A stretch of 64,000 nucleotides of DNA from Bizionia sp. (GTDB lineage: Bacteria; Bacteroidota; Bacteroidia; Flavobacteriales; Flavobacteriaceae), in NCBI GenBank assembly GCA_020631395.1, contig JAHDHI010000003.1, positions 1 to 64,000 of the forward strand, written 5' to 3'. A model generated the notes under the pieces. It was not told the DNA's origin. It saw only the letters and a list, made by a program, of their open reading frames with translations, and made no database searches. Positions 1,130-24,241 of this stretch are shown piece after piece; position 1 is the stretch's first letter, and every line of letters starts with the position of its first letter. The translations under genes and the position numbers were made by a program.

Positions 1130-4100
1130 ATGAGACTAATAACTACATTGGTGTTTGTGCTTATGGCCTTTGCAATGGTCAATGCACAGGAAGAGACTGA
1201 AAGCTGTCCTTTCAATGATACCCAGAAAGCGTATTACGACACTCATCCCGAGGCAAAGGAAGAACTGAATGCCTTTGAGAAGAAGGTGCAAGAGCAGAAG
1301 GCTTTGCTTAAAAGTGGGAATTACAACAAGGTGGCAAAGAAATATACCATTCCAGTGGTGTTTCACATCTATGGCAATCAATGGCCGTTGACTGGAGGTG
1401 AAAATGTAGATGTTACAGAGGCTAAGGTGCTTCAAGCAATGAATGCGATCAATGCGGATTTTGCTGGGTTCAACGATGCTGTGGATCCCGCTTTTCAGAA
1501 TGTCGAAGGTGGAATGGACATCGAGTTCAAACTGGCCCAAATTGACCCAAATGGCAATACCACGAATGGCATCGTTTGGCATGAGACAAAGGAAGGCTTT
1601 GGTTTGAATGGTACCAACGATTCGGAAATAGCCAAGTACGCATGGGACAATTTCAAGTACATGAACGTACACATTCAGTTGGTTATAAATGCTGGTAGTA
1701 CGACATCATCAGGAATAGCTTGGTTTCCATCTACTGGCATGTCGGAAGAAGGAACGGCAAGGGTGGTGTACAATGGACGCTATATGATCTACAATCCTCC
1801 AGCATCGTCTTTGACGCACGAGTTTGGACATTGGTTGGGGTTGCATCATACTTTCAATGGTGGTTGCGTCTCAGGAGACGACAATGGGGACAAGGTGGCA
1901 GACACCCCTCCTACATTGGCAGGAACGGCTTCCCAATCTGGGGGTGAATCTTGTGCAACTGGAGTCACGAACTGTTTCAATCAATTGATAAATCATCAAA
2001 ATCATATGGATTACAATCCTTGCGAGTCCATGTTTACACAAGGGCAAGTGGTTCGCATGGAATCATTTTTGGATCATGATGCAAGGAAGACACTTTGGAC
2101 GGATGCCAATTTGATAGAAACGGGAGTGAAGCAAGATTTGGGAGCAAGGGTATTGTTTTCCTACCAAGACAAAGACGATAGCGAAATTGACAAGTCCTTG
2201 GGATTCTTGGAAGACTTCAACAACAATGGAGGAATACAAAACGCAAAGCGATTGAAAGCGATAGCAGGGGCGCAATTTTCCGTGACGGGAAATTTGCAAC
2301 TAGGGACACATTTTACTGCCTCGGGAGTTCCATCTGGTTTAACTCCGACAATAAACGTCTTGGATAGCAACAATGCCGTTCTTTCCTTTACGGGAAATGC
2401 ATACAATCATGAAGAAAGTGACTCTGCTACGATAACCATAACGTTGTTGAATCCTTCCATTGTGGGAGGTGTGGCTTCTCTACATTCGACGTCTGGGACT
2501 TTCAAGATGAATTTCCTGGATGGCTATGAGGTACACTATGAGACATATTCCCCATTCATGAGCATGGGGTATTCAGGATCCAATGTAGTGTCGGACATCA
2601 ATTCGAAATTCAACTCTTTGGTGATAGGTGGTAGCTTCAGAACGAGATTGAAGGTGTATGATGGAAATATCCTTGCCATCGACAATTTTGCACAAGGATT
2701 TGAGGTTTTATGCAACAACAATACCATCAATGCGAAGTATTTTTCCGAAGGCAGCAATTTAAATGCAAATTCTGCGGGAACTTGGGTTCAAAAGGCCACA
2801 CTTTCCATAGATTCACCTCCTGTATTGTCAAGTCCTGATTATACGGCTTGGCGCAATAAAACGGGGTATGTCGCCATTAGGGTGCCCACGCCAACCAATT
2901 CCTATGTGTATGGTTGGCTCAAAGCTAGAGTATCCTACAATGGGGAAGAAGGGGACATTATGAATTTGGCTTTGAATCCTGATCCGGGGCAAGGACTTTT
3001 GGCAAGCATAGAAAGGCCACATTTGACATATTCCACGGATCGGTTCTTGGAAAGGGCGAAGAACGACAATACCATAGAGAATCAAATCGTCGTCGATCTC
3101 GAAGGTGCTACGTTCTCAAAGACGGGAAGCTTGGAAAGAGGCGTACACTATGCTGTGGGAAACGTGCCGAAGGGATTGATAATGAAAGTCGATGCCATAA
3201 GTTCTACCCAAGTGAGACTGAGGTTGGATGGCGTGTTTCAGGCTCCGAACGTTTCAGGTCGTAGCGACTGGTTGGCAGTAAGAAACATCAAATTCGAATT
3301 TTTGGACGGGGCATTCAACGCAGGTGCCGGAGCAAATGTGGAATTGAAAGATTTTAATTTCAGTTTGGAAAAGGTGGGTCAATCCTATACCGGAACCAAC
3401 ATATCTCATCCAGTATACAATCTGGGTCAAACCTATTCTTCGCCTCCAGGACAATTCATGCTCATAACCCCAAGGAATCAGGTTGCGAATGCAGGTGCCA
3501 CATATCAATTTCAAAATTATCCAAGTTCAAACTCGGGCAACACGTTTCCCGGATTGAAATTGATCACTTGGAGAAGGGATGCCGTCGCCAATGCCAACTA
3601 TGAATTGACGCCTTTGTCACAAGGGGTGATCATTGGTCCCAACAGTTCATGGAAGAATGGTAGGGAGTTTCACAATGGTAGGGGACAACATATGATAGAT
3701 TCTGATTCCTATACGGCTTGGAGGGGTAGGACGGCCTACTACGGCGTTCGAATAAGACGATCAGGTAGAATGCATTACGGTTGGGCTAGAATGCGGGTGA
3801 GCAGCAATGGAACTCAATTCGAGATAGAAGAATACGGGATCAATGGAACCCCCGATGCAAGTATCAGGGCAGGGGAACTGTTTTCGGACGATGTACAAGA
3901 CTATTGTACCGCTGGAGCGACTTATGGACCTGACAACATAAAAAGGGTGACCTTTGCCAACATCGACCGATCGACCAATACAAGGCCAGATGGAGGGTAT
4001 GACAACCAAACGGATCACTATGTCAAGTTGGTGAGAGGAGAAAGTTACAACCTAAAGGTGCAAATCACCGGAAACAGTACCAACGAGGTTTATGCCTGGT

Positions 4101-6628
4101 TCGATTGGAATCAAGACAAAGACTTCAATGATGTCAATGAGCGAGTGCAAGTTGTCATTGCCAATGGAACGACCGTAGGGGAAGTTTCCATCAATGTACC
4201 GACAAATGCCACATTGGGAGGTTCGAGATTGCGACTTAGGATATCCAGAAGCAATAATAACAATCCTTGTGGTTCCAGTGGTACTGGAGAAGTGGAGGAC
4301 TATGGTATATTTGTGTCAAATGAAGCCATTCCGACTTGTGAAGATGGCATAAAGAATGGTGACGAAATTAAAATAGATTGTGGAGGTTCATGTGCGCCTT
4401 GTGAAGTGTTTACGGAAGTATGTGCAGCTTCGACCACAAGTGAGACATTGCAAATCAACAAGGTGGAATTCGGAAGCATAAACAATACAAGCACGCATAG
4501 CCCGTACAACGATTTTACCAATCAAAGTACCAATTTGGAAAAAGGACAAGCAACGCAGTTGACTGTAGCCCTCAACAATCAATGGAGTCCCAACCAAGTA
4601 ATGGTTTGGATAGACTGGTATGACGACAACGATTTTTTGAACACGGAAGATGTCGTGCTCAAAAAGTCAGGAGCCGTGGCCTATGTGGCTAGTGTGACAC
4701 CTCCAAACGATGCCGTTGTAAATACTGGTTTAAGGATGCGTGTGCGTGCAGGTTATACCTTCGAACCCGACCCTTGTGGTGTAGATACTGGCATTGGGGA
4801 AGTAGAGGACTATACGGTTACCGTGGGAGGATCGGTGCCAACAGATACGGAAGCACCATCAGCCCCAAACAATCTGGTGGCCTCAAACATAGGGGAAACG
4901 ACATTGACGTTAAATTGGGCGGCAGCTACCGATAATGTTGGAGTTACAGGATATGATGTATATAGGGCGACCACAAAGTTGGCTACGGTTACAGGTACGA
5001 CTTATGGGGTAACGGGGCTAACAAGCAATACGACTTATGCCTTTTCCGTAAGAGCAAAAGACGCGGCAGGCAACGTGTCGGCATCCAGCAATGTGGCAAA
5101 TGCAACCACGACTGGAAGCACACCACCTCCACCGACCTATTGTGCAGCTTCTGGAAACAATGGAGTAGAAGGCATAAGCAATGTCACTTTTGCCGGAATA
5201 AACAATTCCTCTGTAAGGAATGCTGATGGATATGAGGATTTTTCCAGTGAAATAGCCAGTGTGAGCACAGGGACGAGTCACAATTTGAAAGTGACCATAA
5301 TCGGATATAACGATGGTAGCGCAAACGAGATCTATGCTTGGTTCGATTGGAACAAGGATGGGGATTTTACAGATGTTGGAGAATACGTATTGTTGAACAA
5401 GACCAATGGAACTACTGGAGAATCTACGATCGGCATACCGCAAAATGCAGCATCGGGATTGACAAGAATGCGTGTAAGGGTGGCATATGGTGCAGCATCC
5501 AATGTACCATGTGGAGCAGTGTCCTATGGAGAAGTCGAGGACTACGGTGTAAACGTGGGAGGCATCACGATTCCAAACGAGGCTCCAACGGTAAGCATGA
5601 CGTCTCCCAATGATGGAGATACCTTTAGTTCAGGAGACAACATTGCGATAGGAGCTGTGGCAGCAGATAGCGATGGCACCATTTCAAAGGTTGAGTTCTT
5701 CAATGGCAATGCGAAGTTGGGAGAGGACTCTTCTGCTCCATACAACTACAATTGGAACAATGTGCCTTCGGGAAGTTATACATTAACGGCAAAGGCCACG
5801 GACAATGATGGAGAGACAACCACGTCTTCCAATGTAAAGATAACTGTGAATTCGACGCCTCCACCTACAAGTTATTGTGCAGCAACAGGAAATGGTGGGC
5901 CAGAAGGCGTTTCGAATGTCGCTTTTGCAGGAATCGACAATGCTTCGACGAGAAATGCCACGGGGTATGATGACTTTACTGCAATATCGACAAGTGTAAA
6001 CACAGGATCGAGCCATAACCTTAGAGTGAACATCATCGGTTATCAAGGCGGTTCGACAGATGAGATATATGCTTGGTTTGATTGGAACATCGACGGGGAC
6101 TTTGCGGATGCAGGAGAATCTTACACATTGACCAAGACTTCCAACCTTGTGGGAGATGTCTCGATAGCTGTTCCACAATCGGCAACCAATGGCTCGACAC
6201 GGATGCGAATATTGGTTTCGTATTACAATGTGGAAAACAATCCATGTGATACTGGAACGAATGATGTTAGCTATGGAGAATATGAAGACTATACCGTAAA
6301 TGTCAACAATGCAAGTGCAAAGATAGAGACGGAAACAAAAATAGTAGATGAAGAAGTCTCAACCTTGAACAATGTCATGGAAGTCTATCCTAACCCTGTA
6401 ACAGATGGAAGATTGAACATAGACTTCAAATCCTCGGAAAAGGGAGAAGTGCATATCGAACTTTATGATATTACAGGAACAAAAGTCTATGAGAAAAAAG
6501 AAGAAAAAGGCTCAGAGCAAGTAAAAATCATAGATTTCAATGGACAATTGTCTACAGGGTTCTATCTGTTGAAAGTAAGGTTGGGAGAAGAAGATTCAGG
6601 AAACATGATAAAAATAATGATAAAGTAA
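1130..6628 (+). CDS. secreted M43-type metalloprotease with GEVED, FN3 and Ig-like domains and a T9SS sorting domain
   Basis: A 1832-residue secreted protein. Residues 1-20 form a signal peptide ending in VNAQ. The catalytic domain carries the zinc motif HEFGHWLGLHH at residues 230-240 (ligands H230, H234, H240; catalytic E231) and a Met-turn in NHMDYNPC near 293, as in pappalysin/cytophagalysin-type M43 peptidases. Two copies of a module with TAWR...YGW follow near residues 569 and 862. Four GEVED domains (each ending GEVEDY or GEYEDY) lie near 924-1063, 1097-1233, 1337-1477 and 1581-1725. A fibronectin III domain lies near 1240-1327 and an Ig-like domain near 1482-1575. Residues 1750-1832 (VYPNPVTDGRLNI to the end) are a type A T9SS C-terminal sorting domain. 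I infer export by the T9SS and attachment to, or release from, the cell surface to digest extracellular protein. The substrate is unknown. Confidence 0.9.
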   Translation: MRLITTLVFVLMAFAMVNAQEETESCPFNDTQKAYYDTHPEAKEELNAFEKKVQEQKALLKSGNYNKVAKKYTIPVVFHIYGNQWPLTGGENVDVTEAKVLQAMNAINADFAGFNDAVDPAFQNVEGGMDIEFKLAQIDPNGNTTNGIVWHETKEGFGLNGTNDSEIAKYAWDNFKYMNVHIQLVINAGSTTSSGIAWFPSTGMSEEGTARVVYNGRYMIYNPPASSLTHEFGHWLGLHHTFNGGCVSGDDNGDKVADTPPTLAGTASQSGGESCATGVTNCFNQLINHQNHMDYNPCESMFTQGQVVRMESFLDHDARKTLWTDANLIETGVKQDLGARVLFSYQDKDDSEIDKSLGFLEDFNNNGGIQNAKRLKAIAGAQFSVTGNLQLGTHFTASGVPSGLTPTINVLDSNNAVLSFTGNAYNHEESDSATITITLLNPSIVGGVASLHSTSGTFKMNFLDGYEVHYETYSPFMSMGYSGSNVVSDINSKFNSLVIGGSFRTRLKVYDGNILAIDNFAQGFEVLCNNNTINAKYFSEGSNLNANSAGTWVQKATLSIDSPPVLSSPDYTAWRNKTGYVAIRVPTPTNSYVYGWLKARVSYNGEEGDIMNLALNPDPGQGLLASIERPHLTYSTDRFLERAKNDNTIENQIVVDLEGATFSKTGSLERGVHYAVGNVPKGLIMKVDAISSTQVRLRLDGVFQAPNVSGRSDWLAVRNIKFEFLDGAFNAGAGANVELKDFNFSLEKVGQSYTGTNISHPVYNLGQTYSSPPGQFMLITPRNQVANAGATYQFQNYPSSNSGNTFPGLKLITWRRDAVANANYELTPLSQGVIIGPNSSWKNGREFHNGRGQHMIDSDSYTAWRGRTAYYGVRIRRSGRMHYGWARMRVSSNGTQFEIEEYGINGTPDASIRAGELFSDDVQDYCTAGATYGPDNIKRVTFANIDRSTNTRPDGGYDNQTDHYVKLVRGESYNLKVQITGNSTNEVYAWFDWNQDKDFNDVNERVQVVIANGTTVGEVSINVPTNATLGGSRLRLRISRSNNNNPCGSSGTGEVEDYGIFVSNEAIPTCEDGIKNGDEIKIDCGGSCAPCEVFTEVCAASTTSETLQINKVEFGSINNTSTHSPYNDFTNQSTNLEKGQATQLTVALNNQWSPNQVMVWIDWYDDNDFLNTEDVVLKKSGAVAYVASVTPPNDAVVNTGLRMRVRAGYTFEPDPCGVDTGIGEVEDYTVTVGGSVPTDTEAPSAPNNLVASNIGETTLTLNWAAATDNVGVTGYDVYRATTKLATVTGTTYGVTGLTSNTTYAFSVRAKDAAGNVSASSNVANATTTGSTPPPPTYCAASGNNGVEGISNVTFAGINNSSVRNADGYEDFSSEIASVSTGTSHNLKVTIIGYNDGSANEIYAWFDWNKDGDFTDVGEYVLLNKTNGTTGESTIGIPQNAASGLTRMRVRVAYGAASNVPCGAVSYGEVEDYGVNVGGITIPNEAPTVSMTSPNDGDTFSSGDNIAIGAVAADSDGTISKVEFFNGNAKLGEDSSAPYNYNWNNVPSGSYTLTAKATDNDGETTTSSNVKITVNSTPPPTSYCAATGNGGPEGVSNVAFAGIDNASTRNATGYDDFTAISTSVNTGSSHNLRVNIIGYQGGSTDEIYAWFDWNIDGDFADAGESYTLTKTSNLVGDVSIAVPQSATNGSTRMRILVSYYNVENNPCDTGTNDVSYGEYEDYTVNVNNASAKIETETKIVDEEVSTLNNVMEVYPNPVTDGRLNIDFKSSEKGEVHIELYDITGTKVYEKKEEKGSEQVKIIDFNGQLSTGFYLLKVRLGEEDSGNMIKIMIK

Positions 6629-6722
6629 TTATGGTGTTTTTGATGAAAAATCGAATTTATTTCAATATTTATAACATAAATGTATGAAAATTGAAAATAT
6701 TTTATAATATTTGAATTATTAA

Positions 6723-6785
6723 ATGAAAAAACAATTAGTCAATATCATTTCCATCATCGTCATTGTGATTATTTCACAAGGATAA
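6723..6785 (+). CDS. ilv operon leader peptide 1
   Basis: A 20-residue frame, MKKQLVN followed by IISIIVIVIISQG. Seven residues are Ile, three Val and one Leu, so more than half are products of the downstream operon. The stop codon at 6783-6785 is followed at once by an antiterminator arm and a strong terminator. This is the arrangement of a ribosome-stalling attenuator: scarce Ile-tRNA or Val-tRNA would stall the ribosome in the Ile/Val run. It is too short and too biased to be explained as an ordinary protein, though it could be mistaken for a truncated signal peptide. Confidence 0.75.
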   Translation: MKKQLVNIISIIVIVIISQG

Positions 6786-6850
6786 GGAAGTGCTATAAAT
6801 TAAAATAAATAAGATTTTTAAAAAGCCTTCTGGAAACGGAAGGCTTTTTT
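6786..6850 (+). terminator. ilv attenuator terminator 1 with antiterminator arm
   Basis: GCCTTCTG and CGGAAGGC (6825-6844) form an 8-bp stem closed by a GAAA loop and followed by a run of six T: an intrinsic terminator. GGAAGTGCT at 6786-6794, directly after the leader 1 stop codon, can pair with AGCCTTCT (6824-6831) with one bulged T and one G-U pair. That would block the terminator. A ribosome resting on the leader stop would cover this arm; one stalled in the Ile codons would leave it free. Confidence 0.75.
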
Positions 6851-6864
6851 CATTCAATGCAATT

Positions 6865-6918
6865 ATGAATTTAACAAGTATTATTGTCATGGTAAACGTC
6901 ATTATTGATTCGTCTTGA
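6865..6918 (+). CDS. ilv operon leader peptide 2
   Basis: A second short frame, 17 residues (MNLTSIIVMVNVIIDSS), lying between the first terminator and a second one. Four residues are Ile, three Val and one Leu. Its TGA stop at 6916-6918 is followed three bases later by an arm complementary to the next terminator. The arrangement repeats that of leader 1, which makes chance unlikely. The bias is lower than in leader 1, so it may respond at a different level of charged tRNA. Confidence 0.68.
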   Translation: MNLTSIIVMVNVIIDSS

Positions 6919-6921
6919 GTC

Positions 6922-6978
6922 GATACAGATCTTTATGTATGAAAAAAAGCCTGTATCTCGATAGATGCAGGCTTTTTT
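6922..6978 (+). terminator. ilv attenuator terminator 2 with antiterminator arm
   Basis: GCCTGTATCT and AGATGCAGGC (6949-6972) form a 10-bp stem with one G-U pair and a 4-base loop, followed by a T-run: an intrinsic terminator. GATACAG at 6922-6928 is perfectly complementary over 7 bases to CTGTATC (6951-6957) in the 5' arm and can act as antiterminator. The operon's first gene starts 165 bases further on, so transcripts must pass both terminators to reach ilvE. Confidence 0.75.
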
Positions 6979-7142
6979 CGTACAACTAATTAATAAGATG
7001 GGCATAGTAAATATTTAGACTCAAATAGCTGTATGTCAATTGATTGAATGTAAAACGTTGAATCTGAATTAAATTAAAACAATATAAATGACGCAGATGT
7101 TATCATAGCGTCAATTAATTTTGAACATGTAAACAAAAAATT

Positions 7143-8036
7143 ATGTATTACAACCAAGACACAATAGTATATCTAGATGGAAATTGGATACCTGCAGTAG
7201 AAGCAACTACAGGTTTGTATGTGCAAACGTTGCACTATGGAAATGGCGTTTTCGAAGGCATTCGCTCTTATAAGACAGAAAGTGGAGCGCACGTCTTCAA
7301 AGCCAAGGAACATTACGAACGTTTGTTGTACTCGGCAAAGGTGATGCACATTCCGTGCAATTACACCGTGGAGGAATTAATTGCTTTGACCCATGAGTTG
7401 TTGCAAAAAAACAATATGGAAGATGCCTACATAAGACCCTTGCTATATCAAGGAGAACAAATGACTTTGATACCGGCAGAAGAATCCCATTTGCTATTGT
7501 GTGCTTGGTCTTGGGACAAATACCTAGGGGACGACAAGGTGAGATTGATGACTTCAAGCTACCAAAGACCCAACCCCAAATCAACTCACATACAAGCCAA
7601 GGTAGTAGGACATTATACCAATTCCATATTGGCGACCCGAGAAGCAAAGCAGGAGGGCTATGATGAAGCATTGTTGCTAGATGCTCAAGGTTTTGTGGCA
7701 GAAGGTCCAGGAGCTAATTTCTTCTATGAAAAAGATGGTGTGTTGTACACTTGTCCTTTGGGTAACATCCTGTCTGGCATAACAAGACAAACCGTTTTTG
7801 AAATAGCAGAGGAACTGGGCTACGTCATTGTCGAAAGACATTTTGTACCAAGTGACGTTTATGGTGCAGATGGAGCATTCTTTACAGGGACGGCAGCAGA
7901 AGTGGCACCGATAGAGTCATTGGATGGACATGGCTTTAAAAAAGCTTGGGAAGAAACCATAGGATACATTTTTTCAAAACATTACCAAAACTTGGTAAAA
8001 CAACATAAAGCTAATTTTTTTGAACCAGCAAACTAA
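7143..8036 (+). CDS. ilvE: branched-chain amino acid aminotransferase
   Basis: A 297-residue class IV PLP aminotransferase that interconverts Ile, Val and Leu with their 2-oxo acids in the cytoplasm. The PLP lysine is K153 in QAKVVGHY, and the cofactor-binding loops EGPGANFF and [10 protein letters not shown] are present. Its length fits the short bacterial branched-chain enzymes. The start ATG follows an A-rich leader (AACAAAAAATT). It is the first structural gene after the tandem attenuators, and its stop overlaps the ATG of ilvD by one base, which supports cotranscription. Confidence 0.93.
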
Positions 8037-13760: not shown

Positions 13761-15023
13761 ATGCAAGTTCAAACAACATATTTTCCAACGCTGGAAGCAG
13801 TAGAAGCAGCGGCTTTAAACTTAAAAGGAGTCGCTTCGGTAACACCGTTGATGGAAAATCTACAATACTCGAAACAATTCGATTGCAATGTCTTGTTCAA
13901 ACGTGAAGATTTGCAACAAGTGCGCTCGTATAAAATTAGAGGAGCTTACAACAAAATGTCATCATTGTCTGCAACTGAAATTGAAAATGGGATAGTTTGT
14001 GCAAGTGCAGGAAACCACGCACAAGGTGTGGCGCTATCTTGCAAGCTGTTAAAAGTGAGGGGGACAATTTACATGCCTTCTCCAACTCCCAAACAAAAGG
14101 TGCAACAGGTGAAGATGTTTGGAGAGGACTATATAGACATTGTCTTGAAGGGAGATACGTTCGATGATGCTTACCATGCTGCAATGGAGGAGTGCGATCG
14201 TTTGAACAAGACGTTCATCCACCCATTTAACGATTCCAAAGTCATAGAAGGGCAAGCAACGGTCGGATTGGAAATCATAGATCAGGCAGAACACCCAATT
14301 CATTATGTGTTTGTACCAGTCGGTGGAGGTGGATTGTCAGCAGGATTGTCTACGGTTTTCAAGCAATTGTCTCCAAATACCAAGATAATTGGTGTGGAGC
14401 CGGAAGGGGCTCCATCCATGTCCACTTCTTTGAGAAACAATAAAAATACAGTACTAAAACACATTGAGAAGTTTGTAGACGGGGCAGCCGTACAACGGGT
14501 TGGCGATTTGAATTTTGAAATCTGCAAGCAAAACTTGGATGATATGGTTACAGTGCCGGAAGGCAAGGTGTGTCAGACGATTTTGGATTTGTACAACAAA
14601 GATGCCATAGTCGTTGAACCGGCTGGAGCATTGAGTATTTCTGCCTTGAGCCTTTATGCCGAACAAATAAGGGGTAAAAACGTTGTTTGTGTCGTAAGTG
14701 GAAGCAACAACGACATAACGCGTACTGCCGAAATAAAAGAGCGAGCACTTTTACATGCGAATTTGAAGCATTACTTCATAATAAAGTTTCCGCAGAGAGC
14801 TGGAGCATTGAAGGAATTCGTAGCCGACATTCTAGGACCGACAGATGACATCACTCATTTTGAATATACAAAGAAGACCAATCGTGAAAATGGAGCGGCA
14901 GTAGTCGGGTTGGAGTTGAAATCTCAAGCCGATTTGGAACCATTGATAACCAAAATGAAACTTCACAATTTCTATGGAGACTATTTAAACGACAAGCCAG
15001 ACTTGTTCCAGTTTTTGGTTTAG
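13761..15023 (+). CDS. ilvA: threonine dehydratase (threonine ammonia-lyase), biosynthetic
   Basis: A 420-residue PLP enzyme that deaminates threonine to 2-oxobutyrate, the entry to isoleucine. The PLP lysine is K58 (VRSYKIRGAYNKM), the substrate loop is SAGNHAQGVA, and a glycine-rich phosphate loop VGGGGLSAGL lies near residue 190. The last 90 residues form an ACT-like regulatory domain; one such domain, not two, matches the shorter type of the family. It ends the ilv operon, with a palindromic element between it and ilvC and a terminator after it. Confidence 0.93.
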   Translation: MQVQTTYFPTLEAVEAAALNLKGVASVTPLMENLQYSKQFDCNVLFKREDLQQVRSYKIRGAYNKMSSLSATEIENGIVCASAGNHAQGVALSCKLLKVRGTIYMPSPTPKQKVQQVKMFGEDYIDIVLKGDTFDDAYHAAMEECDRLNKTFIHPFNDSKVIEGQATVGLEIIDQAEHPIHYVFVPVGGGGLSAGLSTVFKQLSPNTKIIGVEPEGAPSMSTSLRNNKNTVLKHIEKFVDGAAVQRVGDLNFEICKQNLDDMVTVPEGKVCQTILDLYNKDAIVVEPAGALSISALSLYAEQIRGKNVVCVVSGSNNDITRTAEIKERALLHANLKHYFIIKFPQRAGALKEFVADILGPTDDITHFEYTKKTNRENGAAVVGLELKSQADLEPLITKMKLHNFYGDYLNDKPDLFQFLV

Positions 15024-24026: not shown

Positions 24027-24118
24027 AAAATAATTTTAAAATAATCTAAAAATAATTTGGATAATAACTTTTTCTAACTGAATATTTGTGCTCACAAAGT
24101 TCAAGACTTTATTGAAAT

Positions 24119-24239
24119 GTTATCAAGAAAGGTGGAGGGAATAGACCCGTTGAAGCCTTAGCAACCCTCAAGCAATTGAGTAGGTGCTAAATTCTACTTG
24201 AAGAAGCGATCCATTTATCGCCAATTCAGGATAGATAAC
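24119..24239 (+). ncRNA. SAM-I (S-box) riboswitch
   Basis: GTTATC (24119-24124) and GATAAC (24234-24239) close the P1 helix. Between them lie the conserved core elements TATCAAGAAAGGTGGAGGGA, GACCCGTTGAAGCC and TTAGCAACCCTC in the order expected for the SAM-I aptamer. It senses S-adenosylmethionine and sits 125 bases before metY at the head of the methionine gene group. The preceding sequence has TTTG and AATATTTG boxes that may be its promoter, the latter one base off consensus. Confidence 0.92.
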
Positions 24240-24241
24240 CA

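Follow-up and report, generated by a model that had tools for sequence, protein, structure and literature searches.

Two Probable Isoleucine-Sensing Leader-Peptide Attenuators in Series Upstream of the ilvEDBNCA Operon of Bizionia and Related Flavobacteriaceae

Introduction

Textbooks present the leader-peptide attenuator with a single gate for each operon. The ilv locus of a Bizionia sp. (assembly GCA_020631395.1, contig JAHDHI010000003.1) raises the question of whether two such gates can stand one behind the other on a single leader RNA. A sequence-only reading of positions 1 to 64,000 of this contig, hereafter the window, had proposed that positions 6723–6978 encode two short peptides rich in isoleucine and valine, each followed by an antiterminator arm and a strong intrinsic terminator. 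We addressed this question by folding and shuffling the leader and by orienting and comparing upstream DNA at about 100 ilvD/ilvE loci in Flavobacteriaceae. We refer to the two units as gates 1 and 2; segment 1 is RNA of the peptide's Ile codons, segment 2 the antiterminator arm and segments 3 and 4 the two arms of the terminator.

The Locus

The double-gate leader lies immediately 5' of ilvE-ilvD-ilvB-ilvN-ilvC-ilvA, all named by NCBIfam models (table 1), and the gates lie in the intergenic stretch between a secreted-protein gene ending at 6628 and the start of ilvE. Judged by its sequence only, the product of this upstream gene (1130–6628, same strand) is a secreted protein of 1832 aa: a metalloprotease-like HEFGHWLGLHH motif lies near its N-terminus and a sorting-type domain at its C-terminus, and fibronectin-like repeats are also present. 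The nearest named relative found was an uncultured Bizionia contig (L004) of the same genus, with IlvE 88% and IlvD 99% identical, and both gates are visible by eye in three Bizionia genomes and in other Flavobacteriaceae.

Table 1. Features of the double-gate leader and operon in window coordinates, with the triple-gate loci of two relatives in their own coordinates
Feature	Position	Strand	Sequence or remark
Candidate promoter P1, -7 element	6706–6713	+	AATATTTG; predicted start near 6718
Leader peptide 1	6723–6785	+	MKKQLVNIISIIVIVIISQG, then stop; 7 Ile and 3 Val codons, no AUA
Gate 1 segment 1	6742–6752	+	ATATCATTTCC; Ile-Ile-Ser codons; partner, segment 2
Small hairpin within leader 1	6763–6779	+	TTGTGA-ttatt-TCACAA; 97% paired
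Gate 1 segment 2	6786–6796	+	GGAAGTGCTAT; antiterminator arm directly 3' of leader-1 stop
Terminator 1	6820–6850	+	AAAAAGCCTTCTG-GAAA-CGGAAGGCTTTTT; 5' arm, segment 3; 3' arm, segment 4
Leader peptide 2	6865–6918	+	MNLTSIIVMVNVIIDSS, then stop; 4 Ile and 3 Val codons, no AUA
Gate 2 helix 1:2	6903–6925	+	TATTGATTC with GAGTCGATA; covers last Ile codons and stop codon
Gate 2 segment 2	6922–6928	+	GATACAG; antiterminator arm, partner 6951–6957 (CTGTATC)
Terminator 2	6943–6978	+	AAAAAAGCCTGTATCT-CGAT-AGATGCAGGCTTTTTT; about -18 kcal/mol; 97.5% paired
Candidate bypass promoter P2, -7 box	7116–7123	+	TAATTTTG, exact TAnnTTTG; 27 nt before ilvE ATG
ilvE	7143–8036	+	First gene of regulated operon; TIGR01122
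ilvD	from 8036		TIGR00110
ilvB	from about 9777		TIGR00118
ilvN	from 11516		TIGR00119
ilvC	from about 12060		TIGR00465
ilvA	13761–15023		TIGR02079
Triple-gate locus L010	1072–1469
Triple-gate locus L189	about 1250–1620	reverse

Structure of the Two Gates

Both Ile-rich frames and both strong terminators proposed for this stretch were confirmed, with terminator energies of about -18 kcal/mol each (-18.2 kcal/mol for terminator 1, a stem at 6820–6849 with a T-run to 6850). The combination of an Ile/Val-rich ATG frame with a strong terminator, present twice in the native sequence, did not arise once in 1,000 dinucleotide shuffles of 6629–7142, which led us to reject chance frames beside ordinary terminators, and neither strand of the 64 kb carries a further example. 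The leader (263 nt) folds at -73.1 kcal/mol, compared with -43.9 kcal/mol for shuffled sequences (z = -7.3), and its unconstrained minimum-free-energy fold contains the 1:2 and 3:4 helices found by comparison. Both terminators were recovered by a purpose-written scan and by RNA folding. A generic terminator scan reported neither of them in the leader stretch, probably because its rule for the start of the T-run misfits stems extended by A/T pairs.

The antiterminator pairings put forward earlier, 6786–6794 with 6824–6831 and 6922–6928 with 6951–6957, are present, the first with a one-base bulge. To these 2:3 helices and to the previously noted 3:4 terminators we add helix 1:2, formed between the RNA of the Ile codons and the antiterminator arm. 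Each unit is a complete three-helix attenuator (1:2, 2:3, and 3:4). Segment 2 starts 0–4 nt past the stop codon in the window, where a ribosome halted at the stop would cover the arm, and leader 2 begins 14 nt past the T-run of terminator 1.

Relatives support the helices in two ways, by compensatory changes for 1:2 and 3:4 and by the comparison of own with swapped duplexes for 2:3. Helix 1:2 of gate 1 joins ATATCATTTC (Ile-Ile-Ser codons) to GGAATGGTAT just past the stop and encloses the small hairpin GTGA-TTATT-TCAC; over 34 loci, 91.9% of its cells are paired and three pairs have changed on both sides, the structures of both gates having been drawn from one relative's row, which biases the paired percentages toward them and leaves the double changes unbiased. 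Terminator 1 is 95% paired among relatives, with five pairs changed on both sides. Scored together, helix 1:2, the hairpin, and helix 3:4 of gate 1 are 94.2% paired, against 42–57% when slid out of place, and contain ten pairs with double changes, a covariation reached by none of 500 shuffles.

Gate 2 presents the same picture over 27 loci. Its helix 1:2 is 90.5% paired, six of nine pairs having changed on both sides, and joins TATTAACTC (last Ile codons) to GAGTTGATA across the stop, the forms at other loci being TATTGATTC/GAGTCGATA or TATTGTCCC/GGGATGATA. Helices 1:2 and 3:4 are together 94.5% paired, compared with 33–50% when slid, and eight pairs with double changes give a covariation exceeding that of all 500 shuffles.

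For helix 2:3, the duplex of each arm with its own terminator stands at -8.2 kcal/mol in gate 1 and -10.1 kcal/mol in gate 2, against -7.5 and -9.3 kcal/mol with swapped terminators, and none of 2,000 swaps was as low in either gate. Per-locus duplex energies also show that the antiterminator arms of both gates far outpair letter-shuffled arms. The 7-bp core of the gate 2 helix is 98.4% paired. Counting the aligned 2:3 pairs of gate 1 in a single register revealed no covariation, because the arm has two alternative registers (a bulge or a 1x1 mismatch).

The small hairpin within leader 1 (6763–6779) is itself covarying and sits in Ile/Val codons; its compensatory forms among relatives are GTGA/TCAC, GTAA/TTAC, GCGA/TCGC, GCAA/TTGC, and GTCA/TGAC. 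It is possible that this element is a pause hairpin or a sensor of ribosome movement.

No Rfam leader family or riboswitch reached its gathering score in the leader, and the permissive Rfam list for it contained no T-box or metabolite riboswitch model. The Thr_leader family (RF00506) scored 39 bits at gate 2 and 18.2 bits at gate 1, below its gathering score of 55, and the analysis defines two RNA elements that have no Rfam match at threshold. Elsewhere in the window, a SAM riboswitch (RF00162) was identified at 24117–24241 on the + strand with 75.4 bits. In the genome to which the window belongs, the gate 1 model scored 113 bits at its own site and 39.7 bits at the next match, and no second convincing copy of either gate was found. 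We also considered whether the two gates are recognisable copies of one another and rejected this, the cross-scores of their models being mostly no better than those of unrelated terminators; an ancient duplication, no longer recognisable, would be compatible with these scores.

Leader Peptides and Codon Content

The peptides themselves are conserved as coding sequences. Alignment gaps well within the leader frames of both gates are nearly all multiples of 3, whereas gaps past the stop are not. For leader 1, pN/pS is 0.51 in frame, against 0.98 and 1.43 in the two alternative frames; the values for leader 2 are 0.38 in frame versus 1.09 and 0.52, a comparison based on eight close pairs in which the frames are not cleanly separated. 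Among relatives, the gate 1 consensus is M-K-K-Q-x-x-N-I-I-S-I-I-V-I-V-I-I-S-Q, followed by the terminator AAGCCTTCC...GGAAGGCTT, and that of gate 2 ends in I-I-V-I-I-N-S-S, followed by AAGCCTGTATC...GATACAGGCTT. In both gates, the most frequent place for the last Ile codon is four codons ahead of the stop.

Conservation of Ile and Val codons in relatives had been suggested as a check on the proposal, and both peptides proved to be Ile-dominated with their frames kept. Isoleucine makes up about 36% of gate 1 leader residues, compared with 7% in the ilv proteins, and valine about 10% of leader residues, also compared with 7%. In the ilv genes of the window, AUA is used more than any other Ile codon (75 of 181), and it accounts for none of the 11 leader Ile codons in the window, 12 of 239 in gate 1 and 26 of 157 in gate 2 of the relatives, which are non-independent, so that p-values for the difference serve as an indication only. 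This avoidance of AUA suggests that the AUU/AUC-reading tRNA-Ile isoacceptor is the one monitored, and pairing constraints may contribute to it.

Distribution among Relatives

One covariance model per gate was run over 100 sources with a cut-off of 45 bits. Across 99 loci from 73 genera, 24 had both gates, 26 gate 1 only, 11 gate 2 only, and 38 neither, tallies that represent classification and not independent discovery because many of the loci scored had also served to train the models. The 38 loci with neither gate indicate that the device is dispensable in Flavobacteriaceae. A closely spaced pair occurs in 23 loci from 16 genera, the gates lying on the same strand and 6–177 nt apart (mostly 10–33), and gate 1 precedes gate 2 in every one of these tandem loci. 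In the remaining both-gate locus, L151, the distance between the gates is 685 nt. The serial arrangement proposed for the window is thus upheld beyond it, with peptides and pairing conserved across genera and covariation in both units.

Two genomes carry three gates in series before ilvE-ilvD (L010 of G095 and L189 of G563; table 1). Gate 2 is duplicated in these loci, with 112 of 118 positions identical in L010 and 108 of 120 in L189, and these are the only plain duplications.

Scans at the level of the order used strict filters and scored only a small number of candidates in each genome, so prevalence cannot be read from their tallies; of the 14 new gate 1 places examined in other genomes, 12 lie 5' of ilvD, ilvA, or a gene resembling ilvN, these names being assigned by similarity to proteins of the window. 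The two exceptions, L205 and L208 of G161, scored 53–55 bits with no ilv gene downstream, and are possibly other leader elements or chance matches. One of these weak G161 matches precedes a gene resembling SAM synthetase. New gate 2 places lie before ilvD or ilvE, one of them (L187) in another family of the order. In genus g128, single gates were found at ilvD and at ilvA, and in some genomes two in series at an ilvN-like gene. The serial gates of L198, L199, and L200 in this genus are Ile-rich and precede an ilvN-like gene with an ACT domain.

Proposed Mechanism and Alternatives

We conclude that the leader very probably carries two ribosome-mediated transcription attenuators in series on one RNA, multiplying the repression of ilvEDBNCA. 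For stalling, for termination, and for the product rule, the steps proposed here draw on established attenuation biology. The leader RNA would start slightly upstream of leader 1 and bear both gates. When charged Ile-tRNA of the AUU/AUC isoacceptor is ample, the ribosome would reach the stop codon and cover segment 2, leaving terminator 3:4 to form; when no ribosome is present, helix 1:2 would keep segment 2 and the terminator would again form. A ribosome stalled at the Ile codons would instead open helix 1:2 and free segment 2, and helix 2:3 would then block the terminator. Polymerase that had passed gate 1 would meet an equivalent test about 130 nt further on. If the gates act independently, read-through into ilvEDBNCA would approximate the product of two probabilities, and serial gating would lower the leak and make ilv expression respond more steeply when isoleucine runs short. 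More broadly, the ilv leaders of Flavobacteriaceae may form a modular array in which one to three gates, all reading the same Ile-tRNA, are gained and lost and set leak and steepness, making gate number an evolvable dial of ultrasensitivity; we consider the case for this evenly balanced.

The flavobacterial sigma-A -7 consensus is TAnnTTTG at -12 to -5 (PMC9723704). A P1-type TTTG ends 5–11 nt (mostly 8–9) before the leader 1 ATG in 36 of 50 gate 1 loci, with TT(A/T)G(G) upstream of the -7 box at constant spacing; in the window itself the -33 match is weak. From the position of the P1 box and the sigma-A placement, leader 1 is expected to have a 5' UTR of only some 5 nt and so to be translated from a near-leaderless mRNA. 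A separate promoter for leader 2 was rejected, since none of the 23 inter-gate stretches (mostly 6–33 nt) contains an exact TAnnTTTG and they are usually too short for a promoter.

Candidate promoter P2 is the main weakness of the reading that all ilv transcripts pass both gates. This exact match to a -7 box already known from flavobacteria (PMC9723704) would leave a 5' UTR of about 15 nt, and the same motif is enriched 3' of the last gate, occurring in 22 of 58 loci where 6.3 were expected (maximum 13 in 200 shuffles). P2 could account for some of the ilv transcription or even the whole of it, bypassing both gates, and this is a live possibility. We tentatively entertain, at somewhat less than an even chance, an operon with two promoters, in which P1 gives the gated transcript and P2 (TAATTTTG) an ungated basal one, the gates then ruling the inducible share only. 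However, no consistent -33 element (TTG) was seen at the right spacing from P2 in the window's group, and the strong selection on both gates implies that the gated transcript matters. The two-promoter operon is in any case compatible with serial attenuators.

Of the two functions offered by the sequence-only reading for serial gates, the sharper, multiplied response fits best, and the assignment of one gate to isoleucine and the other to valine was not supported. Ile:Val per peptide is nearly equal in the two gates, at 7.0:2.0 in gate 1 and 5.8:1.9 in gate 2 (34 and 27 relatives), tallies that led us to reject such a pair, and some gate 2 peptides, such as MQQNIIIISIIIISSS, contain no Val. A wider division of labour, in which the gates sense either Ile versus Val or different degrees of starvation, is unlikely, given also that the duplicated gates of L010 and L189 read the same codons. 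In its favor, the gates are unlike, gate 1 having a longer 1:2 loop and, within its coding region, an additional conserved hairpin, so their thresholds may differ, and each gate occurs alone in some genera. The loci with a single gate of either type (26 and 11) mean that either suffices somewhere, as would be expected if only one gate worked and the other were a decaying duplicate, but both gates in tandem loci have retained frame, Ile codons, helices, and compensatory changes, and we regard such decay as highly improbable. That these are plain terminators of the upstream gene, which lies on the same strand and requires one, beside chance short frames is scarcely credible in view of the shuffles, the covariation, the conservation across genera, and the linkage to ilv. 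Serial attenuation accordingly remains our preferred reading of the leader.

Comparison with Known Systems

The enteric ilvGMEDA, ivbL-ilvBN, and thr attenuators each place one gate before the biosynthetic operon, with a leader peptide in which the regulated amino acid is abundant, mutually exclusive 1:2, 2:3, and 3:4 helices, and an intrinsic terminator. The serial Flavobacteriaceae leaders have the same type of peptide, helices, and terminator but two or three gates where the enteric ones have one. A FEMS survey of attenuators by Vitreschak and colleagues in 2004 reportedly mentions candidates in Bacteroidetes/Chlorobi. Among the open-licence papers searched, we found no account of serial leader-peptide gates for one signal or of ilv attenuators in Flavobacteriaceae.

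The caution about novelty that accompanied the original proposal was partly warranted. For Flavobacterium psychrophilum, leader-peptide attenuation has been proposed ahead of amino-acid operons, with conserved elements upstream of pheA and hisG (PMC9723704). That bacterium belongs to the same family and uses the same kind of control, and the main text of the study describes neither ilv nor serial gates. Attenuation of Flavobacterium amino-acid operons by leader peptides had already been reported; no description of serial gates for the same amino acid was found in the papers searched. These elements belong to a major environmental family in which translation initiation is unlike the Shine-Dalgarno type, and the related genera that naturally carry one, two, or three gates offer a comparative system for the effect of a second, identical sensor on leak, range, and steepness.

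The Salmonella mgtCBR leader also holds two short frames whose translation is coupled to transcription, an arrangement called 'singular' in 2012; its frames sense ATP and proline, and it was contrasted with a leader bearing two intrinsic terminators (PMC3641672). In contrast to mgtCBR, where the frames read different signals, each frame of the ilv leader has a terminator of its own and both read the same amino acid. The Bacillus clausii metE leader, as cited in PMC3641672, has tandem riboswitches and two terminators. Such tandem riboswitches and tandem T-boxes share with the ilv leader the principle of serial gates on one RNA, but they bind ligand or tRNA directly, whereas in the ilv gates the sensor would be the translating ribosome.
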